The position numbers were made by a program, and so were the translations under genes. Of a DNA stretch of 34,805 nt, positions 1-24,262 are shown piece after piece. The first letter of the stretch is position 1, and every line of letters begins with the position of its first letter. The notes under the pieces are model-generated. The model saw only the letters and a program-made list of their open reading frames with translations. It was not told where the DNA came from and did no database searches. Source of the DNA: Paracoccaceae bacterium (GTDB lineage: Bacteria > Pseudomonadota > Alphaproteobacteria > Rhodobacterales > Rhodobacteraceae); contig WOZM01000292.1 in the NCBI GenBank assembly GCA_011620265.1, forward strand, positions 1 to 34,805, given 5' to 3'.

Positions 1-2457
1 CACCCGCCAGGCCTTGGTGTCCTTGTAGGTCGGGTAGTCGGCGACCAGGTCGCGGCGGGGGGTGTAGAGCGGCTCGCGGTGGATCGGCACCGGGTCGGGG
101 AAGGTCCAGACCACGGCACGCGCCTTGGCATTGCCGAAGGGCGCGCATTCGTGCTTGATCGCGACCCGCTGGATGCCGCCCGAAAGGTCGGTCTTCCAGT
201 TGGCCTTCGGCCCGCCGACCGCCTCGATCGCAGCGCGTTCGTCGGCGGTGAGCTCGCCGTCCCAGCCGAGATCCATCAGCATCTGCATGGTGAATTCCGG
301 GTAGCCGTCCTGAATCTCGGACCCCGCCGAATAGACGCCCTCGGCCAGAAGGTTCTGGCCGTCGCGCTCCACCCCGAAGCGGGCGCGGAAGGTGAGGCCG
401 CCCTGGCTGACCGGCATCGACATGTCGTAGAGGTTCGCGGTGCCGGGATGCTTCATCTCGGGCGTGCCCCAGCAGGGCCAGGGCAGGCCGTAGAACTCGC
501 CGTCGGCCGGGCCGCCGACCGCGCGCAGGGTGGTCTTGTCGAAGGTGTGCTGGTTGGCCATGTGCAGTTTCAGCCGCTCGGGCGACTGTCCGGTATAGCC
601 GACGGTCCACATGCCGCGGTTGAACTCGCGGGTGATGTCCTCCACCACCGGCTCGCCGTCCTTCACCTCGATATTGCGGAAGAGCCGGTCGGCGATGCCG
701 AACTTCTCGGCGAACTTCGCGATGATGATGTGGTCGGGCAGGCTCTCGAAGACCGGGGCCACGACCCGATCGCGCCACTGGAGCGAGCGGTTGGAGGCGG
801 TGACGGATCCGCTCGTCTCGAACTGGGTCGAGGCCGGCAGCAGGTAGACGCCGTCGGTCCGGTCGTGCAGCACTGCCGAGACAGTCGGATAGGGGTCGAT
901 CACGACGAGCGTGTCGAGCTTTTCCATCGCCGTCTTCATCTCGGTGCCGCGGGTCTGCGAATTCGGCGCGTGGCCCCAGAGGACCATGACCTTGATGTTG
1001 TCGTTCTGTTCGATGTTCGCCTTGTCCTCGAGCACCCCGTCGATCCAGCGCGAGACCGGGATGCCGTTGGTGTTCATCAGGCTGATCGGGTTGCCGTCCT
1101 TGTCCTTGACCTCGTTGCCGTCGGCATCCTTCAGCGTCACGAACCGGCCTTTGAGCCAGTCGAGATCCTCGCCCCAGACCCGTGCCCAATGCGCCCAGGC
1201 GCCGGGCGCGAGGCCGTAATAGCCCGGCAGGTCGTGGCTGAGGACGCCAAGATCGGTGGCACCCTGCACGTTGTCATGGCCACGGAAGATGTTGGTGCCG
1301 CCGCCGGCAACCCCCATGTTGCCGAGCGCCAGTTGCAGCACGCAATAGGCCCGGGTGTTGTTGCTGCCGGTGGTGTGCTGGGTGCCGCCCATGCACCAGA
1401 TCACGGTGCCGGGGCGGTTGTTGGCGAGCGTGAAGGCGACGCGGCGGAGCTGGCTGCCCGGCACGCCGGTCACGCGCTCGGTCTCTTCCGGCGTCCACTT
1501 CTTCACCTCGTCGCGGATCTGGTCCATCCCCCAGACCCGGGTGCGGATGAACTCCTTGTCCTCCCAGCCGTTCTCGAAGATGTGCCAGAGGATGCCCCAG
1601 ACCAGCGCCACGTCCGATCCCGGCCGCATGCGGACGAATTCGTCGGCATGGGCGGCGGTGCGGGTGAAGCGCGGGTCGCAGACGATGAGCGGGGCGTTGT
1701 TCTCCTCCTTCGCCTTCAGAAGGTGGAGGAGCGAGACGGGATGCGCCTCCGCCGGGTTGCCGCCGATCAGGAAGATCGCCTTCGACTTGTGGATGTCGTT
1801 GTAGGAGTTGGTCATGGCGCCGTAGCCCCATGTGTTGGCCACGCCTGCGACGGTCGTCGAGTGGCAGATCCGGGCCTGGTGGTCGACGTTGTTGGTGCCC
1901 CAGTAGGCCGCGAACTTGCGGAAGAGATAGGCCTGTTCGTTGGAATGCTTGGCGCTGCCCAGCCAGTAGACGCTGTCCGGCCCGCTTTCGGAGCGCACCG
2001 CCAGCATCTTGTCGCCGATCTCGTTGATCGCCTCGTCCCAGCTGATCCGCTTCCAGACCCCGCCTTCCTTCTTCATCGGGTATTTCAGCCGCCGCTCGCC
2101 ATGCGCATGCTCGCGCACCGAAGCGCCCTTGGCGCAGTGGGCGCCGAGGTTGAAGGGGCTGTCCCAGCCCGGCTCCTGCCCGACCCAGACACCGTTGTCG
2201 ATCTCGGCGATGACGGTGCAGCCGACCGAGCAATGGGTGCAGATCGACTTCACCGTCTGGACCGCGCCCGCGACCGCTTCCTGCGCCTCGGCCCGGCGCA
2301 CCGTGCCGCCGGTCGCGCCGATCGCGGCAAGGCCGCCGATGGCCAGACCCGATCCGCGCAGGAACGCGCGCCGGTCGACGCGGGCCTCCGCGGCACCGGA
2401 CAGGACCGGCGTGCGCGATGTCTGTCGGCCAACTCCGCTCGTCTTCTTCCTGAGCAT
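1..2457 (-). CDS. fdhA: Formate dehydrogenase catalytic (alpha) subunit, partial at its C-terminus
   Basis: Molybdopterin oxidoreductase that oxidises formate to CO2. The frame is open from ATG at 2457 to the window edge, 819 codons; the family is usually near 950-1000 residues, so the C-terminal part is missing. A twin-arginine signal (RRAFL at residues 29-33, then a Gly/Ala-rich hydrophobic stretch) suggests export through Tat. Cys73, Cys76, Cys80 and Cys108 form the N-terminal [4Fe-4S] motif, with Lys110 after the last Cys. RICHS at 196-200 gives Cys198 as the metal ligand, where E. coli FdnG has selenocysteine, followed by the catalytic His199. The start has a purine-rich AAGGGAGAGAAGG just upstream. 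It is the last visible gene of the minus-strand operon; electron-transfer subunits are probably beyond the edge. Identity is strong; the symbol follows usual naming for this cluster type. Confidence 0.95.
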   Translation of the reverse strand, partial: MLRKKTSGVGRQTSRTPVLSGAAEARVDRRAFLRGSGLAIGGLAAIGATGGTVRRAEAQEAVAGAVQTVKSICTHCSVGCTVIAEIDNGVWVGQEPGWDSPFNLGAHCAKGASVREHAHGERRLKYPMKKEGGVWKRISWDEAINEIGDKMLAVRSESGPDSVYWLGSAKHSNEQAYLFRKFAAYWGTNNVDHQARICHSTTVAGVANTWGYGAMTNSYNDIHKSKAIFLIGGNPAEAHPVSLLHLLKAKEENNAPLIVCDPRFTRTAAHADEFVRMRPGSDVALVWGILWHIFENGWEDKEFIRTRVWGMDQIRDEVKKWTPEETERVTGVPGSQLRRVAFTLANNRPGTVIWCMGGTQHTTGSNNTRAYCVLQLALGNMGVAGGGTNIFRGHDNVQGATDLGVLSHDLPGYYGLAPGAWAHWARVWGEDLDWLKGRFVTLKDADGNEVKDKDGNPISLMNTNGIPVSRWIDGVLEDKANIEQNDNIKVMVLWGHAPNSQTRGTEMKTAMEKLDTLVVIDPYPTVSAVLHDRTDGVYLLPASTQFETSGSVTASNRSLQWRDRVVAPVFESLPDHIIIAKFAEKFGIADRLFRNIEVKDGEPVVEDITREFNRGMWTVGYTGQSPERLKLHMANQHTFDKTTLRAVGGPADGEFYGLPWPCWGTPEMKHPGTANLYDMSMPVSQGGLTFRARFGVERDGQNLLAEGVYSAGSEIQDGYPEFTMQMLMDLGWDGELTADERAAIEAVGGPKANWKTDLSGGIQRVAIKHECAPFGNAKARAVVWTFPDPVPIHREPLYTPRRDLVADYPTYKDTKAWRV

Positions 2458-2784: not shown

Positions 2785-3393
2785 TCATCCGCCGCTGAGG
2801 CGGAACCCTTCCTTCTCGATCGCCATGAAGGCGCGGCCGATGGCGCCGACCGGCGCGTAGAAGACCGACCCCTTCGCGCCTTCGAGATCGGCGAAGAAAT
2901 GGCCGGCCCAGGGCGCGATATGGCGGTTGAAGAACTCGCGCTGGCGGGCGACCGGTGCCGGCGCGCCGAAGCGGCCCTCGATCAGCCCCGCCATCATCTC
3001 CATCAGGCTGGCGATGTTGTCCTCCGGCTCGAACACGTTCTCGGCCCGGGCGATGGAGGCCGCCGCCATGTCGCGGCGCAGCTGCGCCAGCGGCTTTTCG
3101 TTGAGAAAGCCGGTCAGGTAGAAGCTCGCATAGGGCAGAAGCTCGCCCCGGCCGAGGCCGATGAAGAGGTCGTTGAACTCGCGCTCCACCGAGGACGGCA
3201 CCGCCGCCTGCGCCAGCTTCGACAAAGTCGCGATGCCGCGGCCGAGCGCGCTGCCGTCGCCGCTCAGCCCCGCGCATTTGCGCAGGAGCCTGAGGTCGGG
3301 CGGGGCCGCGAGAAGCGCGGCGAGGAAGTCGTAGAGATCGGCGCGGAGCTTGTCCTCCTCGGCAATCCCGGTCGTCGCGGCGGCATCGCTCAT
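2785..3393 (-). CDS. TorD/DmsD-family molecular chaperone
   Basis: A 202-residue, mostly helical cytoplasmic chaperone of the family that binds the Tat signal of molybdoenzymes and holds the apoenzyme until its cofactor is loaded. The central EFNDLFIGLGRGELLPYAS stretch (about residues 72-90), the following LTGFLNEKPL and a later EPEDNIA motif are typical. Its ATG overlaps the DUF3306 stop by 4 bp, which suggests translational coupling. Position next to a Tat-exported FdhA makes FdhA the likely client (inference). Length is normal for the family. Confidence 0.9.
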   Translation of the reverse strand: MSDAAATTGIAEEDKLRADLYDFLAALLAAPPDLRLLRKCAGLSGDGSALGRGIATLSKLAQAAVPSSVEREFNDLFIGLGRGELLPYASFYLTGFLNEKPLAQLRRDMAAASIARAENVFEPEDNIASLMEMMAGLIEGRFGAPAPVARQREFFNRHIAPWAGHFFADLEGAKGSVFYAPVGAIGRAFMAIEKEGFRLSGG

Positions 3394-4010
3394 GCGGGCG
3401 CTCCTTCCGTCTCGTCGCCGAAGGCGAACCGCATGTGGCGGCGGGGCGCGGGCGGCCTGTCGTCCGGTGTGACGACAGGCATGTCGGCCGGCGCGTCCGG
3501 CTCCGCCGCATCCGCGATCCCGACCGCGTCCGGCACGTCCTCCGGCACCTCTTCGGCCAGTGCCGCGGGTTCCGCATCCGCGGCGGCCTCGGCGAGGGCC
3601 GTCACGTGGCGGAGCATCCCGCGCCCGACCTGATAGGCGGTCTTCATGCCCGGCACGACCGTCGCGGCATCGGTGAAATCCTCGCCGTGATCGACGAGGC
3701 CGTCGAGATTGGCGAGAACCGGGTTGGTCCGCCAGAGCCGGCGCAAGGCGCGGCGGCGCAGGTGATCGGGCACCGCCGACCGCATGAAGGCGGCGAAATC
3801 GTCGCCCTGTCCCATCGTGTCGGGATCCTTCAGGTCAAGCTCCGCCAGAAGCTCGGCATCGGTCTTGGCCGCCTGCTCGCGCTCCAGCGCGGCGCGCGCC
3901 TCCTCCGCCTCGGCGGCGCGGCGCGCGGCCGCTTCCGCCGCGGCCTCGGCCTCGACACCGGCGCGGCGGCGGGACCAGAAATCGCGCGGACGGGACTCGG
4001 CGGCCATCAC
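3390..4010 (-). CDS. DUF3306 protein of the FDH cluster
   Basis: A 206-residue soluble protein. The N-terminus has the FWSRRR motif (residues 11-16), followed by an Ala/Glu/Arg-rich, probably coiled-coil segment (about 17-50). The conserved core runs from about residue 53 to 115 and includes a LRRLWRTNPVLANLDGL-like stretch characteristic of DUF3306. The last 60 residues are acidic and Pro/Ala-rich and look disordered. Genes of this family regularly sit between DUF3305 and a TorD-like gene in formate dehydrogenase operons; their biochemical function is unknown. It overlaps both neighbours by 4 bp (ATGA). A second in-frame Met directly follows the first. Confidence 0.87.
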   Translation of the reverse strand: MMAAESRPRDFWSRRRAGVEAEAAAEAAARRAAEAEEARAALEREQAAKTDAELLAELDLKDPDTMGQGDDFAAFMRSAVPDHLRRRALRRLWRTNPVLANLDGLVDHGEDFTDAATVVPGMKTAYQVGRGMLRHVTALAEAAADAEPAALAEEVPEDVPDAVGIADAAEPDAPADMPVVTPDDRPPAPRRHMRFAFGDETEGAPA

Positions 4011-4570
4011 GCATCCCCCCGGATCGCGCCGCGCGGCGCGCGGTAGACATCGGCCATCTGCCGCACCCGCGCATCGCCGCGCCCGTCCTCGGAAAGGTCG
4101 ATCCGCTTGCGGTCGCGCTTGCGCTTGAGGAACGGCTCCTCGACGTGATGGGCCGCGACGAAGGCGGCGATCCAGGCGATCAGCCCGGCCGGCATCGGCA
4201 CCAGTTCGATGAGCCCGTCGCCGCTGTCCATGTAGTCCTGCCCCTCATAGGCCGAGGCGGTGACGAGCGCGGGCTTCCACGGCATCGCCGCATCGGCCGC
4301 CTCGTCCTCGCGCAGCACGACGATGAGGCCCGGGCTGCGGGCCGAGAGCGTCACCTGATAGGCCTCGGTATCGGTCGACCAGAGATCGAGCGGCAGGGTC
4401 GCGGCGTGATACTCGACCGCCTCCCCCTCGCGGCGCAGCTCGCGCCAGTCGGCCGGGCCGGCGCCGGGCAACACGCCCGTGACCTTCCAGGCCCAGGCGG
4501 CCCAGCGGGTCACGCCCGGCGTCTTGCGGACGACGATCCCGATCGGCATGGTTGCGCGGACAAGCGCCAT
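4007..4570 (-). CDS. DUF3305 protein, first gene of the FDH accessory operon
   Basis: A 187-residue protein with DUF3305 hallmarks: an early MPIGIVV strand (residues 8-14), Trp-rich segment, the EAVEYHAATLPLDLW region near 50-65, a central ITVVLRE-like strand and a C-terminal AAHHVEEPFLKRKRDRKRID stretch. The molecular role is unknown; the family co-occurs with DUF3306, TorD and FDH. It is the first gene of the minus-strand operon, with GGGGAGGAG about 11 nt upstream of the ATG at 4570. In-frame Met8 is an alternative start that would begin directly at the conserved strand. Confidence 0.87.
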   Translation of the reverse strand: MALVRATMPIGIVVRKTPGVTRWAAWAWKVTGVLPGAGPADWRELRREGEAVEYHAATLPLDLWSTDTEAYQVTLSARSPGLIVVLREDEAADAAMPWKPALVTASAYEGQDYMDSGDGLIELVPMPAGLIAWIAAFVAAHHVEEPFLKRKRDRKRIDLSEDGRGDARVRQMADVYRAPRGAIRGDA

Positions 4571-4922: not shown

Positions 4923-6881
4923 ATGATGCCCAAACATTTGATTCTATGCGATTGTCTTGGCAGCCAGGCGATCGACCGCGATGCCGTCGCGAAGGCGACC
5001 GGCCTGTCCTGCCCGCGCGTCCACACGGCCCTCTGCACCCGCGAGATCGACCGCGCGGCGGCGGCGATCACGGCGGGCGAGGCGCTGATCGCCTGTACCC
5101 AGGAAGCCGCGCGCTTCGCCGAGCTTGCGGCGGATCTCGACTGTCCCGAACCCGGTTTCGTCGATCTTCGCGACCGCGCGGGATGGAGCGAGGATCGCGA
5201 CACCGGGCCGAAGATGGCCGCGCTGGTGGCCGAGGCGCTGGTGCCGGCCGCTCCGGTGAAATCGCTCGACGTCGTGAGCGAGGGGCTCTGCCTGATCCTC
5301 GGGCGGCCCGACGTGGCGCTTGCCGCCGCCGAACGGCTGGCCGGAACGCTCGCGGTCACCGTCCTTCTCGACGCCGAGGCCGATCTGCCCGTGTCGCGCA
5401 CCTTCGAGGTTGTGCGCGGTCGCTTGCGCGGCGCCACCGGCACGCTCGGCGCCTTCACCCTCCGCATCGACGCGCTCAGGCAGATGGAGCCCGGCGGGCG
5501 CGGCGCCTTCGGCTTCGGCGCGCCCCGCGACGGGGCCGAGACGCGCTGCGACGTGATCCTCGATCTGTCGGGGGGACCCGCGCTCTTTCCCGCGCCGCAC
5601 AAGCGCGACGGCTATCTGCGCGCCGATCCCGGCGATCCGGCCGCCGTCGCCGCGGCGGTCTTCGAGGCGGCCGAGCATGTGGGCACGTTCGAAAAGCCGC
5701 TGCATCTGGCCTTCGAGGAAAGCCTCTGCGCCCATTCCCGCGCCGGCCAGACCGGCTGCACCCGCTGTCTCGACATCTGCCCGACCGGGGCGATCCGGCC
5801 CGACGGCGACCATGTCGCGATCGACCCGATGGTCTGCGCCGGCTGCGGCGCCTGTTCGGCGCTCTGCCCCTCGGGCGCCATCACCTACGACGCGCCGCCG
5901 GTCGCGCATCTGCTGACCCGGCTCCGGGTTCTGGCCGAGACCTTCCGGGACGCCGGCGGCGCAGCACCCCGCCTTCTGGTCCACGACGCGCCGCACGGGG
6001 CCGAGATGATCGCGCTCGCCGCGCGGTTCGGGCGCGGACTGCCGGCGGATGTGATCCCGTTCGAGGTCGCGGCCCTCGCCGGCTTCGGCCATGCCGAGAT
6101 GCTGGCAGCACTCGCGCTCGGCTTCGTGGCCGTCGATATCCTGCCGGCGCCCCGGACCGAACGCGACCCGATCGCGGCCGAGATCGCGCTGGCGTCGGCG
6201 ATGGGCGGGGCCGCACGGCTGCGGCTTCTGGACGTGACCGACCCCGATGCGCTGTCGGACGGGCTTTACGCGCACCGCCCGGACCCGCTCGGCCACGCGC
6301 CGGTCCTGCCGCTCGGCAATCGCCGGCAGGTGGCGAGGCTGGCCGCCCGGTCGCTGCTTTCGGAGGCGGATGCGCCGATCCCCTTGCCCGTGGGCGCGCC
6401 CTACGGCGCGGTGCTGGTCGACACGGAGGCCTGCACGCTCTGCCTTTCCTGTGCCTCGCTCTGTCCCTCGGGCGCGCTTCTCGACAATCCCGACACGCCG
6501 CAGCTCCGCTTCCGCGAGGATGCCTGCCTGCAATGCGGGCTTTGTGCCACGGTCTGCCCGGAGGACGCGATCACGCTCCTGCCGCGCTTCGATCCGACCG
6601 ACGCGGCCCTCGGCCAGACGGTGCTGCACGAGGAGGAGCCCTTCGCCTGCATCGAATGCGGCAAGCCCTTCGGGGTGCGCTCCACGGTCGAGAAGATCAT
6701 GGAGAAACTCGCCGGCAAGCATGCGATGTTCACCGAGACCGGGTCCGGCCGGCTGATCCAGATGTGCAACGATTGCCGGATCCGGGCGCAGGTTCACGGG
6801 GCTTCCAATCCCTTCGCGGCGGCTGAGCGGCCACGGGTGCGGACGACCGACGACTACCTCTCGAAGCGCCGGGATCACTGA
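4923..6881 (+). CDS. 4Fe-4S polyferredoxin of the FDH cluster
   Basis: A 652-residue iron-sulfur protein, predicted cytoplasmic (no signal peptide). The N-terminal 270 residues carry scattered Cys (CDC at 9-11, and CT within the ALIACTQEAARF stretch) that resemble the N-terminus of HdrA-like proteins only loosely. Two adjacent ferredoxin motifs follow: Cys279/282/286 plus an upstream Cys269, and Cys305/308/311/315. Another pair is at Cys504/507/510/514 and Cys535/538/541/545. The C-terminus has two CxxC pairs (576/579 and 615/618), a zinc- or redox-like arrangement. It diverges from the FDH accessory operon, and an electron carrier or assembly factor for that enzyme is inferred. Start is uncertain: GGGGAGG abuts the first ATG, so ATG at 4926 is equally possible. 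Confidence 0.85.
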   Translation: MMPKHLILCDCLGSQAIDRDAVAKATGLSCPRVHTALCTREIDRAAAAITAGEALIACTQEAARFAELAADLDCPEPGFVDLRDRAGWSEDRDTGPKMAALVAEALVPAAPVKSLDVVSEGLCLILGRPDVALAAAERLAGTLAVTVLLDAEADLPVSRTFEVVRGRLRGATGTLGAFTLRIDALRQMEPGGRGAFGFGAPRDGAETRCDVILDLSGGPALFPAPHKRDGYLRADPGDPAAVAAAVFEAAEHVGTFEKPLHLAFEESLCAHSRAGQTGCTRCLDICPTGAIRPDGDHVAIDPMVCAGCGACSALCPSGAITYDAPPVAHLLTRLRVLAETFRDAGGAAPRLLVHDAPHGAEMIALAARFGRGLPADVIPFEVAALAGFGHAEMLAALALGFVAVDILPAPRTERDPIAAEIALASAMGGAARLRLLDVTDPDALSDGLYAHRPDPLGHAPVLPLGNRRQVARLAARSLLSEADAPIPLPVGAPYGAVLVDTEACTLCLSCASLCPSGALLDNPDTPQLRFREDACLQCGLCATVCPEDAITLLPRFDPTDAALGQTVLHEEEPFACIECGKPFGVRSTVEKIMEKLAGKHAMFTETGSGRLIQMCNDCRIRAQVHGASNPFAAAERPRVRTTDDYLSKRRDH

Positions 6882-6889
6882 TGCCGGGA

Positions 6890-7219
6890 TCAGCGGTTGA
6901 CGTTCTCGCCCCCCGGATCGGCGGCTTCGAGGCCGGCGACACGGGCCTGCACGGCCTCCACCTCGTCGATCGACAGGGTGACGGGCACGATCGGCGGCGG
7001 GCGCGCGGGGTCGAAGGGCGGGCCGAGCCGCGCGTCGGCGCCGGCCTCGACCGGCCGCACCCGCCGTCCGGCCTTGAGCGTGAAGCGTGGCAGGATATAG
7101 TCGAGAAGCCCGCTCGTCGCGATTTCGGGCGCGGCGAAGAGGCCGAAGTCCCGCGCCTCCTCCGCCCGGCCCGGCAACGCGCCGAACAGGGCGAGGGCAA
7201 GGGCCACAAGATGCCGCAT
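6890..7219 (-). CDS. Short secreted protein with PBP-like N-terminus, probably internally deleted
   Basis: A 109-residue protein that begins with a Sec signal (MRHLVALALALFG, predicted cleavage after about residue 18). The next segment, SGLLDYILPRF...GRRV (about 33-50), resembles the start of tungstate/molybdate-type binding proteins of the TupA kind. The C-terminal part has a Pro-rich FDPARPPPIVPVTLS segment. From memory, longer FDH-linked proteins in this group carry a binding-protein-like start, a CxxCH cytochrome-like middle and a tail like this one; here the middle is absent. Start at 7219 is supported by GGAGGAACG 7 nt upstream; the longer frame to 7270 has no such site. It converges on the polyferredoxin with an 8-bp gap. 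Function unknown. Confidence 0.6.
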   Translation of the reverse strand: MRHLVALALALFGALPGRAEEARDFGLFAAPEIATSGLLDYILPRFTLKAGRRVRPVEAGADARLGPPFDPARPPPIVPVTLSIDEVEAVQARVAGLEAADPGGENVNR

Positions 7220-7292: not shown

Positions 7293-7493
7293 ATGGATGA
7301 CGATTTCAACATGTCGCTGCGGAAGTTCCTGAAGCAGGTCGGCGTGACCTCGCAGCAGGCGATCGAGGACGGCGTGCGCAAGGCCGGCGCCGCCGCGACG
7401 GGCCGGACCTTCACCGCGAAGATGGTGCTGACGGTGGACGGGCTCGATGTCGAGCATGTCGTGACCGGGAAGATCGCCGGGCCCGCCGCATGA
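7293..7493 (+). CDS. DUF6494-like small protein
   Basis: A 66-residue soluble protein. The N-terminal FNMSLRKFLKQVGVTSQQAIE segment (from residue 5) is highly patterned and matches what I recall of DUF6494, a small family found next to mrp in Rhodobacterales. The rest has a short beta-rich end (TFTAKMVLTVDGL). No catalytic motif is visible. AAAGGA lies 7 nt before the ATG. Its stop overlaps the mrp start by 4 bp, so the two are probably translated as a pair; a regulatory or adaptor role for Mrp is only a guess. Confidence 0.72.
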   Translation: MDDDFNMSLRKFLKQVGVTSQQAIEDGVRKAGAAATGRTFTAKMVLTVDGLDVEHVVTGKIAGPAA

Positions 7494-8557
7494 GCCTTGG
7501 CCGCGACGACGTGCTCGGGGTCCTGAAGACCGTCGCCGATCCGGTGGGCGGCAAGGATATCGTCACGGCCGGGATGGTGCGGGCGCTGACGGTCGAGAAT
7601 GGCGCGGTGCGCTTCGTGCTCGAGATCGACCCCGCCCGCGCGGCGCGGATGGAGGTGGCGCGGGCCGAGGCCGAGGCGAAGCTGCGCGCCCTGCCGGGTG
7701 TCGGCTCGGTTTCGGTGGTGATGACCGCCCATGCGGCACCGACCCCGCCACCCGATCTCAAGACCGGCGCGCGGCCGAAGCCGCAGGGGCCGGAGAAGAT
7801 CCCCGGCGTCGACCGGATCGTCGCGATCGCGTCCGGCAAGGGCGGGGTCGGCAAGTCGACCGTCGCCGCCAACCTCGCCGCAGCCCTTGCCGCCGAGGGG
7901 CGGCGGGTCGGGCTTCTCGACGCCGATGTCTACGGGCCGTCGCAGCCACGGATGCTCGGCATCACCGGCCGCCCCGCCTCGCCCGACGGCAAGACGATCC
8001 TGCCCCTGCGCAACCACGGCGTGACGCTGATGTCGCTCGGCCTGATGACGCGCGACGACGAGGCGGTGGTCTGGCGCGGGCCGATGCTGATGGGGGCGCT
8101 GCAGCAGATGCTCTTCCAGGTCCAGTGGGGGGCTTTGGACATCCTGCTCGTCGACCTGCCGCCCGGCACCGGCGACGTGCAGATGACGCTGACCCAGAAG
8201 GCCGAGGTGGCGGGCGCGATCATCGTCTCCACCCCGCAGGACATCGCCCTTCTCGACGCGCGGAAGGGCATCGACATGTTCCGCAAGATGGGCACGCCGA
8301 TCCTCGGCATGATCGAGAACATGGCCGTCCATGTCTGCTCGAAATGCGGCAACGAGGAGCATATCTTCGGCCATGGCGGCGTCCGGGCCGAGGCGGAGAA
8401 GCTCGGCGTGCCGCTTCTGGCGGAGATCCCGCTCCATCTCGACATCCGCACCGCGTCGGATGGCGGCGCGCCGGTCGTGGTGTCGAAATCCGCCTCGCCG
8501 CAGGCCCGCGCCTTCCGCGACCTCGCGAAACGGCTGATCGCGGACGGGCTGGCATGA
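7490..8557 (+). CDS. mrp: Mrp/ApbC family Fe-S cluster carrier ATPase
   Basis: A 355-residue P-loop ATPase that binds and delivers iron-sulfur clusters to client proteins. An N-terminal MIP18/DUF59-type domain spans about residues 1-85. The deviant Walker A motif SGKGGVGKST lies near residues 114-123, DVYGPSQPRML near 142-152, LLVDLPPGTGD near 218-228, and the cluster-binding pair Cys283-x2-Cys286 sits in VCSKCGNEEHIFG. Length and layout are those of bacterial Mrp. The gene overlaps DUF6494 upstream and the ligase-like gene downstream by 4 bp each. Placement in an FDH region suggests delivery of clusters to FdhA or the polyferredoxin (inference), though Mrp proteins can also act generally. 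Confidence 0.93.
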   Translation: MSLGRDDVLGVLKTVADPVGGKDIVTAGMVRALTVENGAVRFVLEIDPARAARMEVARAEAEAKLRALPGVGSVSVVMTAHAAPTPPPDLKTGARPKPQGPEKIPGVDRIVAIASGKGGVGKSTVAANLAAALAAEGRRVGLLDADVYGPSQPRMLGITGRPASPDGKTILPLRNHGVTLMSLGLMTRDDEAVVWRGPMLMGALQQMLFQVQWGALDILLVDLPPGTGDVQMTLTQKAEVAGAIIVSTPQDIALLDARKGIDMFRKMGTPILGMIENMAVHVCSKCGNEEHIFGHGGVRAEAEKLGVPLLAEIPLHLDIRTASDGGAPVVVSKSASPQARAFRDLAKRLIADGLA

Positions 8558-9276
8558 GCCAGATCCCGACCTTCCCGCCCTTGATGAAGGGGCTCGCGGC
8601 CGGGCCGGCCAACCCCTTCGCCATCGCCTGCGATCAGGCGCGGCGCGGGGTCGATGCGGGGCTTCTCACCTGGTCGGTCTCGCCCGAGCGGCTGCGCGCG
8701 GCGCTGGTTCTGGCACCCGAGGTGCCGCTCGAGCCGGCGACGGCGGCCCTCGTCGCCTGCGGCGTCGGGCTTCAGAACGCGCTCGGCGTGCTCGCGCCGC
8801 CGGAAACCGCCGTCCACCTCGACTGGTCGGGCGGCGTGCGGGTCAACGGCGCCCATGCCGGCGGCCTCAGGCTCTGGTCGGCGACGCGCGATCCCGCCGC
8901 CCTGCCCGACTGGCTCGTCGTCGGGGTTGAACTCACGCTGACCCTGCCGCCGGAATGGGAACCGGGCGAGACCCCGGACCGCACCGCGCTCGACCACGAG
9001 GGCTGCGGCGACCTCGACCCGGTCGCGATCCTCGAAAGCTGGTCGCGCCACAGCCTCGTCTGGATCAACCGGCTCGACGATCCGGGCGGACGGGCGGAGC
9101 TGAACCGCGAATGGTCGGGGCTGGCCTGGAACCTCGGCAAGCAGGTCGCCCACACCCTGCCCGACGAACGGCTCTGCGGCACCTTCCTCGGCGTCGACGA
9201 GAATTTCGGGATGCTGCTGAAAAACGCGGCCGGGACGCGGCTGATCCCGCTCTCGCGCCTGATCGAGGAGGACTGA
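8554..9276 (+). CDS. Biotin/lipoate ligase-fold protein with C-terminal DUF4444
   Basis: A 240-residue protein of the BPL/LplA-like fold (Pfam BPL_LplA_LipB_2 type) ending in a DUF4444-like domain (about 180-238, with the GTFLGVDENFGMLL segment). Features expected of a working ligase are missing to the eye: there is no GRGRRGR-type nucleotide loop after ARRGVDAGLLTW, and where biotin ligases have a catalytic Lys in a KLAG context this protein reads NGAHAGGL. It may be a binding protein or pseudoenzyme rather than a ligase. The start is ATG at 8554, overlapping the mrp stop by 4 bp; a longer upstream frame lies inside mrp. DUF6505 follows after one base, so it belongs to the same operon. Confidence 0.82.
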   Translation: MSQIPTFPPLMKGLAAGPANPFAIACDQARRGVDAGLLTWSVSPERLRAALVLAPEVPLEPATAALVACGVGLQNALGVLAPPETAVHLDWSGGVRVNGAHAGGLRLWSATRDPAALPDWLVVGVELTLTLPPEWEPGETPDRTALDHEGCGDLDPVAILESWSRHSLVWINRLDDPGGRAELNREWSGLAWNLGKQVAHTLPDERLCGTFLGVDENFGMLLKNAAGTRLIPLSRLIEED

Positions 9277-9277
9277 C

Positions 9278-9757
9278 ATGCATCTCGCCCGCGCGATCCA
9301 TTTCGACGAGAGCGACCGCAACGTCTTTCACAGCCCGGCGCGGACCGGGGAATGGGCGATCTCGGGCGGGTTCGAGTTCTCCAACTGGACCGAGGCCGAC
9401 CTGACCGGCAAGGCGCGGCAGGCCTTCGCCAATGGCTGGCTCGGGGTGGAAACCTTCGGCCGCGTCACCTTCGTCGCCGTCACCCGGATCGAGCCGGAGG
9501 AGGTCGAGGCGCTGACCCAGCGCCTTGCCGCGCATTTCGTCGAGGTCTACGGCGCCCCCTCGCCCGACGCCGCCCGGCCGGTCGCGGCAGAGGAGATCGC
9601 GCAGATGGCCGAGCTTTGCGCCGACCACGCGCCGAACACCGTCCTCACGGTCCTGCGCGAGCTGACCGGGGCGGGTGTGCGCGAGCAGTACCGCTTCATC
9701 GAGCCGTCCGAGGCCGGGCTCGACCAGTTCGCGATCCACGGCGAGGTCGAGGGATAG
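9278..9757 (+). CDS. DUF6505-like protein
   Basis: A 159-residue soluble protein without signal peptide or membrane segment. It begins MHLARAIHFDESDRNVF, continues with alternating strands and a FVAVTRIEPEE segment, and has a helical second half with a single Cys (AELCADHAPN). I recall this family, annotated DUF6505, from Rhodobacterales next to the ligase-like gene and mrp, but cannot name a function. One base separates it from the preceding stop, so it is almost certainly in the DUF6494-mrp-ligase-like operon and probably serves the same process. Confidence 0.75.
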   Translation: MHLARAIHFDESDRNVFHSPARTGEWAISGGFEFSNWTEADLTGKARQAFANGWLGVETFGRVTFVAVTRIEPEEVEALTQRLAAHFVEVYGAPSPDAARPVAAEEIAQMAELCADHAPNTVLTVLRELTGAGVREQYRFIEPSEAGLDQFAIHGEVEG

Positions 9758-9837: not shown

Positions 9838-11352
9838 ATGCCCGCCGACCGCAACGTCCTTTTCGTCATCATCGACCAGCTTCGCGCCGACTGCCTCTTC
9901 GGCGCCCTCGCCGATCACGTGAACCTGCCGAACCTCCGGGCGCTGATGGCCGACGCGGTGTCGTTCCGCCGCCACTACTCGGTGGTCAATCCCTGCGGCC
10001 CCTCGCGCGCCTCGATCCTGACCGGGCAATATGCGATGAACCACCGCTCCACCCGGAACGGCACGCCGCTGCGCCACGACACGCCGAACCTCGCGACCGA
10101 GGTCCGCAAGGCCGGCTGGCTGCCGCTTCTCTTCGGCTATACCGACACCACCCGGGATCCGCGCGTGCTGCCCCCCGGCGATCCGGCGCTGAAGAGCTAC
10201 GAACAGGTGATGCCGGGCTTCGAGGAAGTCGTCGAGATGCGGCTCGAGGAAAGCCTGCCCTGGCGCGCGCATCTCGCGGCGAAGGGCTACGAGGTGCCGC
10301 CCTACCCCGCGATCTTCCGCCCCGCAGGCCCCCGCCCCGACGATCCCGCACTTTACCGGGCCGAGGACAGCGACACCGCGTTCCTCACCGACCAGATGCT
10401 CGCCGCGCTCAGGGTCCGCAAGCCCGGCTGGTTCGCCCACCTGACCTATATCCGCCCGCACCCGCCCTTCGTGGCACCCGCGCCCTACAACCGGATGTAC
10501 GACCCGGCGGCGCTGCCGCTCCCGGTCCGCGTCGGCCCCGCCGAGGCCGAGCGCGCCCGCCATCCGCTGATCGCGATGAGCCATCTCGGAAACCCCATCG
10601 CCCGCACCGTCGAGGGCTTTCCCGACCTCGAGCCGAGCGACGCCAATGTCCAGATGCTGCGCGCGATCTATCTCGGGCTTGCCACCGAGGTCGATCACCA
10701 TCTCGGCCGCGTCATCGGCTTGCTGAAGGAGACCGGCCAATACGACCGGACGCTGATCGTCGTCACCGCAGATCACGGCGAGATGCTCGGCGACCACCAT
10801 GTCTGGGGCAAGTCGACCTTCTACGATGCCGCCTACCATACCGGGCTCATCATCCGCGACCCGTCGCAGCCCGCCCATTTCGGTCGCGTCGTCGATCACC
10901 CGACCGAGGCGGTGGACGTGACGCCGACGATCCTCGACCGGCTCGGGCTTGCGATCCCGCAGTCGATGGACGGGTGCAGCCTCGCGCCCTTCCTTCGCGG
11001 CGAAACGCCCGCGGCCTGGCGCGACCACACGTTCTCGGAGCTCGATTTCGGCGATCCCCTCGACCCCCACCCCGCGCTCGTCGCGCAGGGGATCGCGCCG
11101 GAAGAGGCGAACCTCGCGATCCTGCGCGGGCCGACGCATACGCTCGTCCACGTCAATGCCGGCCTGCCGCCGCTGCTCTTCGATCACCGCGCCGAGGGCG
11201 AGATGCGCGACATCGCGGCCGAGCCGGAGGCGCAACCCGTGCTGCTGCGGATGACGCGGGCGATGCTCGACCACCGGATGCGCCATGCCGACGCGCTCTT
11301 TGCCCGCACGATGGTCACCCCGGCGGGTGTCGTCACCGTTCCGCGGGGCTGA
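9838..11352 (+). CDS. Phosphonate monoester hydrolase / sulfatase family enzyme
   Basis: A 504-residue alkaline-phosphatase-superfamily hydrolase. The N-terminus has NVLFVIIDQLRAD with metal-ligand Asp13. Cys53-Gly-Pro-Ser-Arg57 is the CxPSR signal for conversion of Cys to formylglycine, and TADHGE gives Asp312 and His313 as further metal ligands. The whole layout, including PCGPSRASILTG, the MNHR segment and YIRPHPPFVAPAPYN, resembles the Rhizobium phosphonate monoester hydrolase more than typical arylsulfatases. These enzymes cleave phosphonate monoesters, phosphodiesters and some sulfate esters. No signal peptide is seen, so it is probably cytoplasmic. It stands alone, 80 bp after DUF6505 on the same strand, with AGGGA before its ATG. 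Substrate in this organism unknown. Confidence 0.85.
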   Translation: MPADRNVLFVIIDQLRADCLFGALADHVNLPNLRALMADAVSFRRHYSVVNPCGPSRASILTGQYAMNHRSTRNGTPLRHDTPNLATEVRKAGWLPLLFGYTDTTRDPRVLPPGDPALKSYEQVMPGFEEVVEMRLEESLPWRAHLAAKGYEVPPYPAIFRPAGPRPDDPALYRAEDSDTAFLTDQMLAALRVRKPGWFAHLTYIRPHPPFVAPAPYNRMYDPAALPLPVRVGPAEAERARHPLIAMSHLGNPIARTVEGFPDLEPSDANVQMLRAIYLGLATEVDHHLGRVIGLLKETGQYDRTLIVVTADHGEMLGDHHVWGKSTFYDAAYHTGLIIRDPSQPAHFGRVVDHPTEAVDVTPTILDRLGLAIPQSMDGCSLAPFLRGETPAAWRDHTFSELDFGDPLDPHPALVAQGIAPEEANLAILRGPTHTLVHVNAGLPPLLFDHRAEGEMRDIAAEPEAQPVLLRMTRAMLDHRMRHADALFARTMVTPAGVVTVPRG

Positions 11353-11677: not shown

Positions 11678-13717
11678 ATGAAGAGAGTACTGTTAGGCAG
11701 CGTGGCGTTGCTGGTCATCCCGGCCGCATCGTTCGCGAACTGCCCCGGCATCACCGTCGCGGATATGGGCGGCATCGCCGCCGGCGCCTACCCCGAGCAG
11801 TTCGACCTGAGCGAGTTCCAGACCGCCGCCGGCTGCACGATGGAACTGTCCGAAAACCCGGCCATCGCGGATCTCAATGGCCAGATCCGCGCGAACCCGG
11901 ACCTGCCGCCGCTCGCCGAGCGTCTGCCCGAGGATCCGCTCGTCGTCGTGCCCTACGATTCCGTCGGCAAATACGGCGGCACGCTCGACGCGCTGTCGAA
12001 CGCGACCGAAGCCGGCACGTCCGACTTCATGTCGCTGCGCCACGTCAACCTCGTGCGCTACTCGGACGACCTCGAGACGATCGTGCCGAACGTCGCGAAA
12101 AGCTGGGAGTGGAACGACGATTTCACCCAGCTGACCTTCCATCTGCGCAAGGGCCACAAGTGGTCGGACGGCCAGCCCTTCACCTCGGCCGACGTGAAGT
12201 TCTGGTACGACAACCTCGCGCTCGATCCGAACATCAACGAGAAGCCGAAGGATTACGTGACCGTCGCCGGCCAGCCGATGACGGTCGAGACGCCGGACGA
12301 CGAGACGGTGGTCTTCAAGCTGCCGGCGCCGAAGCCGGGCCTTCTGGCCCATTTCGCGACGCACTTCGCCCAAGGATTCCAGCCGAAGCACTTCCTCGGC
12401 AAGTTCCACCCGGCGATCAACCCGGATGCCGACAAGGAAGCCCAGGCGCTCGGTTTCGCCAACGGCTACGAGGTCATCAAGGCCTATTACGGCAACTCCG
12501 ACTGGATGGACACGCCGACGCCGATGCTGAATTCGCCCGACAAGGTCGCGGCAATGCCGGCCGACGCGGCGCCGACGCTCGAAAGCCACATCGTTGTCCG
12601 CGAGACGACCGAGGGACGGCATTTCGTCGCCAACCCCTACTTCTTCCAGGTCGATACCGAAGGCCACCAGCTTCCCTACATCAACGAGATGGACGAGCTT
12701 TACGCCAACGACCAGGAAGTGCGCCTGCTCAAGCTCGTCAACGGCGAGGCGGACTACAAGAGCCAGTCGCTGCAGCTTTCCGACGCGCCGTTCCTGCTTG
12801 AGAACCAGGAAAAGGGCGGCTATTCGGTGCAGTTGAAGCCGAAGATCGCCATGCACACGGTGTCGTTCAACGTCACCTCGACGGATGAAGAGAAGCGCGC
12901 CGTCTTCGGCGACCTGCGCTTCCGCCAGGCGATGTCGGTCGCGATCAACCGCGAGGCGCTGAACGAGACCGCCTATTTCGGCGAAGGCACGATCCAGCAG
13001 TATACCGGCTTCTCGCCGCTGCCGGACTACATCGACGCGAAATGGAAGACCTTCGCGTCCGAGTACGACCCGGACGGCGCCAAGGCGCTTCTCGACGAGG
13101 TCGGCGTCGTGGACAAGGACGGCGACGGCTCCCGCGACCTGCCGAGCGGGGCGCCCTTCGTCCTCAACATGCAGTTCGCGACCCAAGGCATCGCCGGTCA
13201 GGTCGTCGAGCTTATCGCGCAGGACTGGGCCAATGTCGGCATCAAGACCACGGTGAAGGAAATCACGCCGGACGAATACCGCTCGGCGCAGTCCTCAAAC
13301 CAGCTCGATGTCGGCCTGTGGGAGAAAGGCCAGCCCGTCGGCATCATCATGGGCAACAACGAGCTCTGGGTGCCGCCGTTCGAGAACTACTTCGCCCACC
13401 GCACCGGCATGCTCTGGGCCGAATGGGTCGACAGCAACGGCGCGAGCGGGTTGGAGCCGCCGGAATACGTCAAGCAGCTCATGACCGACATCAACATGCT
13501 GCAATCGACACCGTCGGGCACCGACGAGTTCAAGGCGATCGCGAACCGGCTGGTCGAGAACATGACCTCGAACCTGCTCTTCATCGGGACAGCACTGACA
13601 CCCGACCCGATCTACCACCGCAATGCGCTGAAGAACTTCCCGGAGTTCAAGACCGCGTCCTACGAATACTACCGCACCTACCCCTACCGGGCGTCGCAGT
13701 GGTATTTCGACGAATGA
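11678..13717 (+). CDS. ABC transporter substrate-binding protein, family 5 (large type)
   Basis: A 679-residue periplasmic binding protein of the peptide/oligosaccharide family 5. A Sec signal occupies residues 1-20 (cleavage after SFA), leaving Cys22 near the mature N-terminus, not in a lipobox. The family signature region KSWEWNDDFTQLTFHLRKG and WSDGQPFTSADV (about 147-177) and the RFRQAMSVAINREAL segment in the second lobe are clear. It is longer than ordinary dipeptide-binding proteins (about 530), as seen in some sugar-oligomer systems such as Agp. Substrate cannot be read from sequence. It starts a five-gene operon and is followed by a strong stem-loop before the permease gene. AGGAGAG supports the start. 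Confidence 0.92.
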   Translation: MKRVLLGSVALLVIPAASFANCPGITVADMGGIAAGAYPEQFDLSEFQTAAGCTMELSENPAIADLNGQIRANPDLPPLAERLPEDPLVVVPYDSVGKYGGTLDALSNATEAGTSDFMSLRHVNLVRYSDDLETIVPNVAKSWEWNDDFTQLTFHLRKGHKWSDGQPFTSADVKFWYDNLALDPNINEKPKDYVTVAGQPMTVETPDDETVVFKLPAPKPGLLAHFATHFAQGFQPKHFLGKFHPAINPDADKEAQALGFANGYEVIKAYYGNSDWMDTPTPMLNSPDKVAAMPADAAPTLESHIVVRETTEGRHFVANPYFFQVDTEGHQLPYINEMDELYANDQEVRLLKLVNGEADYKSQSLQLSDAPFLLENQEKGGYSVQLKPKIAMHTVSFNVTSTDEEKRAVFGDLRFRQAMSVAINREALNETAYFGEGTIQQYTGFSPLPDYIDAKWKTFASEYDPDGAKALLDEVGVVDKDGDGSRDLPSGAPFVLNMQFATQGIAGQVVELIAQDWANVGIKTTVKEITPDEYRSAQSSNQLDVGLWEKGQPVGIIMGNNELWVPPFENYFAHRTGMLWAEWVDSNGASGLEPPEYVKQLMTDINMLQSTPSGTDEFKAIANRLVENMTSNLLFIGTALTPDPIYHRNALKNFPEFKTASYEYYRTYPYRASQWYFDE

Positions 13718-13741
13718 CGGCGTGACCTGACATAGCCATCG

Positions 13742-13771
13742 GGCCGGGGCGGGTTGCCGCTCGCCCCGGCC
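13742..13771 (+). promoter_or_regulatory. Perfect G+C-rich stem-loop between binding-protein and permease genes
   Basis: GGCCGGGGCG (13742-13751) and CGCCCCGGCC (13762-13771) form a perfect 10-bp stem with a 10-nt loop, 25 bp after the binding-protein stop and 36 bp before the permease start. No U-run follows, so it is not a standard terminator. In importer operons such stem-loops protect the upstream mRNA from 3' exonucleases and raise binding-protein output; that role here is inferred. Confidence 0.6.
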
Positions 13772-13807
13772 TGACGTCGTCTCCGACCGACAGGACGCGC
13801 TTAGACC

Positions 13808-14815
13808 ATGGCCCAATTCGCCCAGTTCGCGCTGACCCGAGCCTTCATGGCCCTGGTGACGCTTCTCACCGTCTCGCTCATCGTCTTCACGCTGATGGAG
13901 CTGGTGCCCGGCACCTGCGCGGAGCGCTACCTCGCGTTCAAGAACACCCAAGGCTCGCAGATCACCATCGCCGACATCGCGGCGGAGGAGAGGCGGCTGG
14001 GTCTCGACCGGCCGTTCCCCGAGCGCTGGGGCAAGTGGGTCTACAATGTCTTCGTTCACGGCGAATTCGGCGACAGCTGCATTCTCCGGCTGAACATAAA
14101 CCAGCTTCTGGCCGACAAGTTCTGGATCTCGCTCGGCATCTGCATGGCGGCGCTGATCCTGTCCTATGCGATCGCGGTGCCGATCGGCATCATATCGGCC
14201 AGCTCCAACAATCCGGTGACCAACAACTCGCTGCGCTTCGTGAGCTATCTCGGCCTCGCGCTGCCGAACTTCCTTCTGGCGCTGATCATCATGCTCTTCT
14301 CGACGGTGGTGTTCGGCGACAGCCTGACCGGGCTCTTCTCGAAGGAATACCGGGATGCGGCGTGGAGCTGGGCGAAGTTCGGCGACTTCCTCAGCCGGGC
14401 CTGGCTGCCGGTCTTCATCCTCGGCTGGTCCGCCACCGCCTTCGCGTTGCAGACGGTGCGGGCGCTGATGCTGGACGAGATCGGCAAGCTCTACGTCACC
14501 GCCGCCGCCGCGCGCGGCGTCTCGGGAACGAAGCTGCTCTGGCGCTATCCGGCCAGACATTCGCTCGGGCCGGTGATCAACTCGCTCGGCTTCGACCTCA
14601 ACCGCATCTTCAACGAATTGCCGATCGTGGCGCTGATCCTGACGCTGACGGAAGCGGGCGCGCTTCTCTTCGAGAGCCTCGCGCGGTCCAACGACCAGCA
14701 ACTGGCCGGCGCGATCATCTTCCTGCTGACCGCCAGCATCGTGGCGCTGAACTTCGCCACCGACATCCTGCTGGCCCTGATCGACCCGCGCGTGCGCCGC
14801 GGCATGATGGGATAG
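13808..14815 (+). CDS. ABC transporter permease (DppB/OppB type)
   Basis: A 335-residue inner-membrane permease. The first membrane segment lies at about residues 11-35 (LTRAFMALVTLLTVSLIVFT), followed by the periplasmic ELVPGTCAERYLAF region and LGLDRPFPERWGKWV typical of the N-terminal domain of this class. Core membrane segments run from about residue 105. The EAA-loop that docks the ATPase is near AAAARGVSGTKLLWRYPA (about 235-252). It ends RVRRGMMG. Four bases separate it from the next permease gene, so the two are co-translated and probably form the heterodimeric channel. Confidence 0.92.
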   Translation: MAQFAQFALTRAFMALVTLLTVSLIVFTLMELVPGTCAERYLAFKNTQGSQITIADIAAEERRLGLDRPFPERWGKWVYNVFVHGEFGDSCILRLNINQLLADKFWISLGICMAALILSYAIAVPIGIISASSNNPVTNNSLRFVSYLGLALPNFLLALIIMLFSTVVFGDSLTGLFSKEYRDAAWSWAKFGDFLSRAWLPVFILGWSATAFALQTVRALMLDEIGKLYVTAAAARGVSGTKLLWRYPARHSLGPVINSLGFDLNRIFNELPIVALILTLTEAGALLFESLARSNDQQLAGAIIFLLTASIVALNFATDILLALIDPRVRRGMMG

Positions 14816-14819
14816 GCGC

Positions 14820-15971
14820 ATGTTCGCACGCAAGACAGCCACCGTCGGCGGGATCGACCAGAAGGCCAAGGAGGCCTATTTCACCGCCTCGCAGGGCCAG
14901 CTCATCTGGGCGCGCTTCAAAGGCAACCGGACGGCGATGATCGCCGCCTGGGCGCTGGTGCTGATGATCCTGATGGGGCTCTTCGCGCCGTTCCTGTCGC
15001 CCTACGACCCGACCATCGCGGGACGTGACGAGAACTACGAGAACGGCGCCCCGCAGTTTCCGAAATTCAAGGACGAAAACGGCTTTTCCGCCCGCCCCTT
15101 CATCTACGCGACCGAACGCGAACGCTCGATCAAGACCAACTTCCGCTGGGTGGTGACCGAGAACCGCGACAAGCGGCTTTATGTGCGGTTCTTCGTCCGC
15201 GACTGGGACTACAAGCTTCTCGGCGTGATCCCGACCAACATCCACCTTTTCGGCGTGGACGAGGGCGGCAAGATCCACCTCTTCGGCACCGATGCGAGCG
15301 GCAAGGACATCTTCGGCCGGACGCTGCACGCGATCTGGACCTCGCTCGCCGTCGGCACGCTCGGCGTCTTCATCTCCTTCGTCCTCGCGCTCGTCATCGG
15401 CGGGGTGGCGGGCTATTTCGGCGGCTGGATCGATTCCGTCCTGCAGATGATCACCGATGCGATCCGGACCGTGCCCTCGATCCCGCTCTTCATGGCGCTC
15501 GCCGCCTTCATGCCCGATCACTGGTCGTCCGAGACGCGGTTCTTCTTCATCTCGATCATCCTCGGGCTGATCGGCTGGCCGACGCTCGCGCGACGCATAC
15601 GCACCCATCTCCTGACCGAACGCACGCAGGAATACGTGCTCGCGGCCGAGCTTTGCGGGGCGTCGTCAAGCCATATCATCCGCCGCCACCTGCTGCCCTC
15701 GTTCACGAGCTACATCATCGTCGACCTGATGATCTCGTTCCCCTACATGGTCCGGTCCGAGACGGCCTTGTCCTTCATCGGCCTCGGGCTGAAAGACCCG
15801 GTCAACTCGCTCGGCGCGCTGATGCAGAACGTCTCGAAGGCGGACGTGCTTCTGAACTATCAGTGGTATTTCATCCCCGTGATCTTCTTCGTGGCGCTGG
15901 TCCTCGCCTTCGTCTTCGTCGGCGACGGGCTCCGCGATGCCGCCGACCCCTACTCGGATACGAAGAAATGA
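14820..15971 (+). CDS. ABC transporter permease (DppC/OppC type) with enlarged periplasmic loop
   Basis: A 383-residue permease. A long hydrophilic N-terminus (1-35) precedes the first membrane segment (about 39-58). Then comes LSPYDPTIAGRDENYENG and a periplasmic insert of about 100 residues reaching HLFGTDASGKDIFGRTL (about 154-170), much longer than in ordinary DppC. Five further membrane segments follow. The EAA loop is near LAAELCGASSSHIIRRHLLP (about 276-295), and SFIGLGLKDP is the usual late motif. The C-terminus reads GDGLRDAADPYSD. It overlaps the next ATPase gene by 4 bp. The insert may contact the large binding protein (inference). Confidence 0.92.
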   Translation: MFARKTATVGGIDQKAKEAYFTASQGQLIWARFKGNRTAMIAAWALVLMILMGLFAPFLSPYDPTIAGRDENYENGAPQFPKFKDENGFSARPFIYATERERSIKTNFRWVVTENRDKRLYVRFFVRDWDYKLLGVIPTNIHLFGVDEGGKIHLFGTDASGKDIFGRTLHAIWTSLAVGTLGVFISFVLALVIGGVAGYFGGWIDSVLQMITDAIRTVPSIPLFMALAAFMPDHWSSETRFFFISIILGLIGWPTLARRIRTHLLTERTQEYVLAAELCGASSSHIIRRHLLPSFTSYIIVDLMISFPYMVRSETALSFIGLGLKDPVNSLGALMQNVSKADVLLNYQWYFIPVIFFVALVLAFVFVGDGLRDAADPYSDTKK

Positions 15972-24156: not shown

Positions 24157-24191
24157 GTGCGAGGCCCCCTGTTGTGTTGTTTGTATCCGCA

Positions 24192-24236
24192 TATTTATCA
24201 TGATAATTTGCCATCGTCAAAATTTTCATGATAAAT
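24192..24236. promoter_or_regulatory. Divergent promoter-operator with two TCATGA palindromes
   Basis: TTATCATGATAA at 24195-24206 is a perfect 12-bp palindrome. TTTTCATGATAA at 24223-24234 is a near copy; the TCATGA cores are 28 bp apart. On the minus strand TTGACG (24220-24215) and TAAATA (24197-24192), 17 bp apart, could drive the importer. On the plus strand TTGCCA (24208-24213) with GATAAA (24230-24235), 16 bp apart, could drive DUF1028. Both palindromes lie on the putative -10 elements, as expected for repression. The FCD regulator encoded at the end of the importer operon is the natural candidate binder (inference). Confidence 0.6.
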
Positions 24237-24262
24237 TGAAACAACTGGAACGGAGCGACCGC

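Follow-up and report, generated by a model that had tools for sequence, protein, structure and literature searches.

Four tightly coupled genes in the draft genome of a Paracoccaceae bacterium probably form part of an accessory module for the biogenesis of a formate dehydrogenase (FDH). They lie at positions 7293-9757 of contig WOZM01000292.1 (assembly GCA_011620265.1), a contig of 34,805 nucleotides that was analysed over its whole length and is called the window here (G000:C208:1-34805 in our numbering), and encode, in this order, a DUF6494 protein, a P-loop NTPase of the Mrp/ApbC/NBP35 type, a biotin-protein-ligase-like protein and a DUF6505 protein. Our reading, to which we assign a probability of about 0.58, is that they are the form taken in Rhodobacteraceae by an alphaproteobacterial module serving the biogenesis of a respiratory, molybdopterin-containing enzyme exported by the twin-arginine translocation (Tat) pathway, apparently of the FDH3 type to judge by the NCBI annotation of named relatives. 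The association of the module with this FDH is close to certain. Maturation is the process that we infer as likely, and the clients and complexes discussed below are of the same inferred kind.

Results

All four genes are on the forward strand, and all four products score above the Pfam cut-offs of their families: DUF6494 (7293..7493, 66 amino acids (aa); PF20104, E 6.6e-29, 100.5 bits), the Mrp-type NTPase (7490..8557, 355 aa; PF01883 FeS_assembly_P, E 5.9e-20, and PF10609, NUBPL-type, E 1.7e-98), the ligase-fold protein (8554..9276, 240 aa; PF16917 BPL_LplA_LipB_2, E 6.8e-64, and PF14563 DUF4444, E 4.1e-13) and DUF6505 (9278..9757, 159 aa; PF20115, E 3.4e-82, 274 bits). Re-reading of the coordinates and the Pfam matches both agree with the original prediction, which had described four genes joined in this way beside an FDH cluster: DUF6494 and Mrp share a 4-base-pair (bp) ATGA overlap, as do Mrp and the ligase-fold gene, and a gap of 1 bp precedes DUF6505. 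A scan for promoters and terminators gave one promoter-like site (7074-7101) and no terminator, and was not used.

A DUF6505 alignment scanned against one genome per species found at least 514 relatives, the best 80 loci of which were analysed; their titles name Rhodobacteraceae, Paracoccaceae, Rhodobacterales and roseobacter-type genera, and four metagenome-assembled genomes are labelled just Alphaproteobacteria. Genes for Mrp and the ligase-fold protein stand beside DUF6505 in all 80 loci, and DUF6494 was detected in 70, the polyferredoxin of the FDH cluster in 75, DUF3305 in 70 and FdhA, the FDH alpha subunit, in 62. Where enough upstream sequence is available FdhA is present in 62 of 63 loci, and 17 of the 18 loci without it have less than 7.4 kilobases (kb) of sequence on the FDH side. 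Spacing of 20 bp or less is kept in 65/70 measurable DUF6494-Mrp pairs, 71/78 Mrp-ligase pairs and 79/80 ligase-DUF6505 pairs. Since these loci are the closest relatives of the window, and therefore not mutually independent, the wider test comes from two samples of genomes, each at least 90% complete: 199 genomes of the phylum and 241 alphaproteobacterial genomes (the class sample).

In the phylum sample, where DUF3305 was used as a marker of the FDH cluster, DUF6505 occurs in 19 genomes and DUF3305 in 31, and all 19 genomes with DUF6505 also have DUF3305. The class sample was scored for FdhA of the window's type only (E <= 1e-150), which is present in 33 genomes, with DUF3305 in 34. DUF6505 exceeds its cut-off in 23 genomes, a count made after below-cut-off matches in G263 and G351 (20.5 bits) had been dropped, and FdhA accompanies it in 21 of them. 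Strong matches to the ligase-fold protein, of at least 130 bits, were found in 22 genomes, every one of them with FdhA. The cut was set after the list was viewed and excludes 17 weaker matches (92-129 bits), each from a different genome, two of these genomes having a strong match as well. Weak matches alone occur in 15 genomes, FdhA being present in eight; at least one of the weak matches, that in G016, is a BirA by its motifs, and the one in G227 sits on the FDH contig. All told, 32 of the 33 genomes with FdhA carry one or more of DUF6505, a strong ligase-like match, DUF6494 and a further family, DUF6352. In neither sample were the genes equally frequent without the FDH or beside an unrelated enzyme, which upholds the original proposal of a single process tied to FDH.

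Co-occurrence also holds where module and FDH lie apart. In G302 (Mrp-ligase-DUF6505-DUF6352), G380 (the same four followed by DUF6494) and G276 (ligase-DUF6352-DUF6494), all drafts and all FDH-positive, the FDH is on another contig, outside the stretches fetched around the module; in G377 a ligase-DUF6505-DUF6352-DUF6494-polyferredoxin group is about 580 kb from FdhA on the same contig; and a lone DUF6505 gene is distant from the FDH in G016 and G317, both of them FDH-positive genomes. Such co-occurrence without linkage argues against simple carriage on one island. The idea that these genes share no function and travel as ordinary neighbours on an FDH island can appeal to their plasmid location, by which the cluster may move between lineages: DUF6505 is found in 78 plasmid records, 61 of them from Pseudosulfitobacter or Sulfitobacter, and the four annotated plasmid regions that were opened all carry the FDH3 cluster. 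With order and spacing kept in 80 loci, and genomes in which the separated module still accompanies the enzyme, we regard this idea as very improbable.

The four genes named in the original prediction do not make up a constant set. Beyond Rhodobacteraceae, most of the loci read have an extra gene for a protein of about 335 aa, DUF6352 (PF19879), after DUF6505 or the ligase-like gene, and the set consists of the ligase-like protein, DUF6505 and DUF6352, with or without DUF6494, the cluster Mrp being mostly absent. DUF6352 is present in 25/33 FdhA-positive versus 1/35 FdhA-negative class genomes examined, the latter count excluding G131, G160, G164 and G177, which lack DUF3305 and in which FdhA was not scored. 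It was found in none of the seven genomes of the window's own family that have the module and in neither of two genomes of the family f39. DUF6494 is present in 23/33 FdhA-positive versus 3/47 FdhA-negative class genomes examined; as it also occurs unlinked and in FdhA-negative genomes, we rejected it as an FDH-only gene. At the end of the module, several loci (L147:7224-7577, L148:10941-11291, L153:9479-9793, L154:10853-11140, L155:6253-6504, L158:9855-10142 and L160:9440-9766) encode a short protein, about 83-117 aa long, with a single hydrophobic segment near the N-terminus and, as a rule, two cysteines; the copies from L148, L153, L158 and L160 have no Pfam match.

The window Mrp has an N-terminal FeS_assembly_P domain, a Walker motif GKGGVGKS and a CSKC at residues 283-286, and the Walker motif and the CxxC pair are kept in all 53 Mrps compared. 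By its NTPase domain and its CxxC it is of the Fe-S carrier type, and binding and transfer of clusters are predicted for it. Its score against the NCBIfam ApbC equivalog is 339.4 bits, below the cut-off of 348, so that it is classed as Mrp-type by domain and not as an ApbC equivalog. We rejected the possibility that it is the housekeeping copy, because another Mrp, 61% identical to it, is encoded on contig C201 of the same genome. An extra Mrp is likewise present in 7/7 same-family genomes with the module, one of which has three Mrps, whereas 5/6 same-family genomes without the module have a single one, the sixth (G160) having a second Mrp of another type. In family f39 a second Mrp lies in the cluster in all three genomes examined. 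The window protein matches the cluster Mrps of families f39 and f8 only from about residue 85-96 onwards, past FeS_assembly_P, and the cluster Mrp of G185, the one that was scanned, consists of the NTPase domain only, with FeS_assembly_P absent; in the cluster Mrp of G070 the open frame is longer and the start is therefore uncertain. Well-supported branches of the trees require that cluster Mrps arose at least twice independently, once on the Rhodobacteraceae side and once in genus g21.

The ligase-fold protein is by sequence a relative of BirA and very probably is not itself a ligase. PF16917 scores 215 bits against a cut-off of 27, a full-length homolog has a structure in the PDB (3bfm, 'biotin protein ligase-like protein of unknown function', E 1.1e-74), and the profile of the protein finds BirA chains including 3l1a and 1bia, its DUF4444 part aligning with the C-terminal part of BirA. 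The ligase fold and the DUF4444 assignment of the original prediction thus stand; the activity that the name suggests very probably does not. The window protein lacks the WPND and GRGR motifs, and has His101 at the position, placed by alignments, of what we take to be the catalytic lysine of BirA-type ligases. Among 93 homologs, 80 of them from the best 80 loci, a lysine is found at this position in four, GRG in one and W[PF]ND in none, in contrast to the BirA proteins at five control loci (one in the same genome), which have KWPND and the lysine in 5/5 and GRGR in 3/5. The missing motifs make the protein a probable pseudo-enzyme, and it differs from BirA in its gene neighbourhood too, which is that of FDH3. 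A working lipoate/biotin-type ligase, modifying a lysine on the polyferredoxin or on one of the DUF proteins, would agree with the high PF16917 score and the BirA structures found by the profile, but these motif counts make it most unlikely.

The remaining two proteins are small. DUF6494, which has no cysteine, is predicted to form a long helix (residues 3-35) and a beta hairpin (39-62), and its AlphaFold2 model (mean predicted local distance difference test score 92.9) gave no clear fold match; DUF6505 contains a single cysteine, C114, and its model (mean score 74.2) gave no fold match. Profile searches of both families against PDB sequences returned chance matches only. Cysteine lists revealed no Fe-S motif in the ligase-like protein, DUF6505 or DUF6494, and none of the four unit proteins matched the FdhD or FdhE family profiles in Pfam and NCBIfam. 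None of the four has an export leader by eye or a 19-residue hydropathy stretch above 1.60, and they should therefore act in the cytoplasm.

The FDH genes of the window precede the unit. The FdhA open reading frame (1..2457, reverse strand) is cut at its 3' end, the C-terminal part, by the contig edge, past which FdhB and the cytochrome b gamma subunit, both present in relatives, would fall; FdhA of fetched relatives is about 56-82% identical to it, and FdhB adjoins FdhA in the class-sample loci read. FdhA begins with a twin-arginine leader (DRRAFLRGSG), which fits the periplasmic location of FDH3 in Methylobacterium extorquens given in the available part of PMC12180729. Also on the reverse strand are a TorD-family chaperone (2785..3393, named from annotated relatives and with homologs beside FdhA), DUF3306 (3390..4010; PF11748, E 1.6e-18) and DUF3305 (4007..4570; PF11749, E 4.1e-37). 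The polyferredoxin (4923..6881, forward strand) has Fer4 matches in four stretches and 28 cysteines in 652 aa, with three CxxCxxCxxxC motifs, a variant (C269/C279/C282/C286) and two further quartets, C9/C11/C38/C58 and C576/C579/C615/C618, which are invariant in 12 sequences; its hydropathy reaches 1.82 in one internal stretch, and inspection by eye shows no leader. A likeness of its N-terminus (C9, C11, C38, C58) to HdrA was sought with a profile search and did not show up.

The frequent presence of this cysteine-rich protein, which adjoins the module in 75/80 loci, raises the question of whether polyferredoxin, Mrp and the small proteins form a redox relay or sensor working with FDH3 in electron transfer or regulation. 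The leader on FdhA implies that the mature enzyme faces the periplasm, and the ligase-like protein, DUF6505 and DUF6494 have no Fe-S motif with which to take part; we consider such a relay improbable.

Other genes of the window touch the module less directly. Between the polyferredoxin and DUF6494 lies a gene remnant (6890..7219, reverse strand) of 109 codons with an open frame, 138 codons fewer than in its relative at L029, where the gene is 247 codons long and encodes a CARCH heme motif; the CxxCH motif is among the lost part. CxxCH is present in 53/57 products of this gene called across the best 80 loci; the N-terminal part of its relatives looked like a substrate-binding protein, and the copy scanned (L018) has no Pfam match. 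Directly after the unit, a sulfatase-family gene (9838-11352) has its best NCBIfam match, below cut-off, to a PehA-type phosphoric/sulfuric ester hydrolase; it was rejected as a member of the unit because a homolog is within the flanks of just 2/80 loci. Further on are an oligopeptide/nickel-type ATP-binding cassette (ABC) importer (11678-17967: a binding protein, two permeases and a 676-aa open reading frame with ATPase matches) and a DUF1028 protein (23975-24922).

Annotated plasmid clusters of relatives (Tateyamaria, Salipiger, Sinorhizobium meliloti and Bradyrhizobium) contain fdh3B, TorD, DUF3305, DUF3306 and DUF6505, together with a ligase-fold homolog labelled 'biotin/lipoate--protein ligase family protein' in all four; DUF6494 is annotated in all but one of them, and DUF6352 in both rhizobial ones. 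The same stretch includes mobA in Salipiger and S. meliloti, and fdhD in Salipiger only. At L161 a regulator with HTH_17 and PBP_like domains (13619-14518) and a PBP_like_2 binding protein (14522-15349) adjoin the module, and perhaps provide molybdenum- or tungsten-responsive regulation and oxyanion uptake; in S. meliloti the comparable position is occupied by a helix-turn-helix regulator and an ABC transporter.

These neighbourhoods bear on the strongest rival of an Fe-S role, in which the pseudo-ligase and DUF6505 receive or protect bis-molybdopterin guanine dinucleotide (bis-MGD), or the metal, for FdhA, with Mrp serving another step. The module of S. meliloti is placed between molybdopterin genes with the ABC transporter and mobA, that of Salipiger is near mobA, mobB, glp and fdhD, and the L161 pair beside the module points the same way. 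The ligase fold class, moreover, binds nucleotide-linked cofactors, and the ligase-like/DUF6505 pair occurs in genomes without a second Mrp. Against this, molybdenum genes are also neighbours of FDHs without the module, our comparison identified no signature of cofactor binding, and the recruitment of Mrp points to Fe-S. We prefer the Fe-S role mainly because an intact Fe-S carrier has been repeatedly captured by one kind of cluster, and we judge molybdenum or tungsten handling to be possible, though rather unlikely.

Discussion

Our results link the four genes and DUF6352 to one type of FDH, and several observations weigh against the biogenesis reading and should be considered together. Association is incomplete in both directions. 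In the phylum sample 12 of the 31 genomes with DUF3305 have no DUF6505; in the class sample DUF6505 and a strong ligase-like match are both missing from nine of the 33 genomes with FdhA, and one (G343) lacks all of DUF6505, the ligase-like protein, DUF6352 and DUF6494. Because of the first two counts we see the module as an accessory and not as a universal need of the enzyme. Conversely, DUF6505 occurs without this FdhA in G414 (L151, the gene alone) and G287 (L152, with a stop inside the copy), DUF6352 without it in G204, and DUF6494 without DUF3305 in G107 and G166; when any ligase match at E <= 1e-25 is accepted, only 30 of 37 genomes have FdhA. At L108, from Rhodobacteraceae bacterium IMCC 34051, the one true exception among the loci without FdhA, Mrp-ligase-DUF6505 is kept and 10 kb upstream contain no FdhA, polyferredoxin or DUF3305. 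A second Mrp is present in just two (G174 and G185) of the nine other DUF6505-positive alphaproteobacterial genomes examined. The one-sided Fisher values for the associations of DUF6505 with DUF3305 (8.7e-19), of DUF6505 with FdhA (9.6e-20) and of the strong ligase-like match with FdhA (2.3e-23) ignore relatedness among the genomes. Finally, the predicted structures gave no functional hint, and no mutant or biochemical evidence for the role of the module was found.

For the biogenesis reading, we propose a division of labour among the module proteins. The four proteins would act in the cytoplasm while FdhA and FdhB are still there, before export, a timing that accords with the insertion of cofactors ahead of Tat export described in the available part of PMC10924467. 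The cluster Mrp would supply [4Fe-4S] clusters to FdhA, FdhB or the polyferredoxin, much as NUBPL/Ind1 does for complex I; the ligase-fold protein and DUF6505, usually its neighbour, may form an adaptor holding the client or its cofactor; and DUF6494 may be a small auxiliary subunit. Genomes without a cluster Mrp would rely on the housekeeping copy, with DUF6352 joining the adaptor. Taken one step further, the module might be a loading machine for FDH3, in which a dead, BirA-derived ligase and DUF6505 (with DUF6352 where present) hold the apo-enzyme or cofactor while the dedicated Mrp ATPase loads the clusters. We offer this fuller picture tentatively; if true, the machine would be a bacterial counterpart of NUBPL/Ind1 for a molybdoenzyme, and four DUF families would gain a role together.

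The comparison with NUBPL/Ind1, the eukaryotic Mrp relative that serves respiratory complex I, is based on several shared features. Like Mrp/ApbC/NBP35 proteins and NUBPL/Ind1, the window Mrp has the PF10609 domain, the GKGGVGKS Walker A motif and a C-terminal CxxC pair, and like Ind1 it appears, by analogy, to be dedicated to one cluster-rich respiratory enzyme. Unlike the general Mrp/ApbC/NBP35 proteins, it is encoded within an FDH3 cluster, with the housekeeping copy elsewhere. FdhD, FdhE and the TorD/NarJ-type factors are maturation factors of molybdoenzymes, and the stage proposed for the module, cytoplasmic and before Tat export, is the same as theirs; TorD itself is encoded in all four named plasmid clusters. 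The four unit proteins differ from these factors in matching none of them in Pfam or NCBIfam.

The likeness to FDH3 of Methylobacterium (fdh3DABC) is drawn through the enzyme name in the NCBI annotation of relatives, and the accessory genes of the module are not mentioned in the available part of PMC12180729. DUF3305 and DUF3306 are named as upstream genes of dmsD-fdhGHI operons, the same FDH neighbourhood, in the available text of PMC4464133, which does not mention DUF6494, DUF6505 or DUF4444. In the open-licence literature, from which subscription papers are mostly missing, we found no description of the module and no paper naming DUF6494, DUF6505, DUF6352 or DUF4444 or giving a function for them. 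According to the available part of PMC11540253, knocking out the membrane-bound FDHs of Cupriavidus necator did not significantly alter fitness on formate, so that mutant tests would call for a host to which FDH3 makes a difference.

FDH3-type FDHs are present in many alphaproteobacteria, with 33 positive genomes among the 241 sampled, and on plasmids. Our survey links DUF6494, DUF6505, DUF6352 and DUF4444 to one enzyme, and suggests that one of them is part of a repurposed pseudo-ligase. Because four DUF families are tied to one enzyme and Mrp has been captured repeatedly by its cluster, a single series of knock-outs can test them all jointly. The list of accessory genes should also be of use for expressing FDH3 in a foreign host, which may need them.

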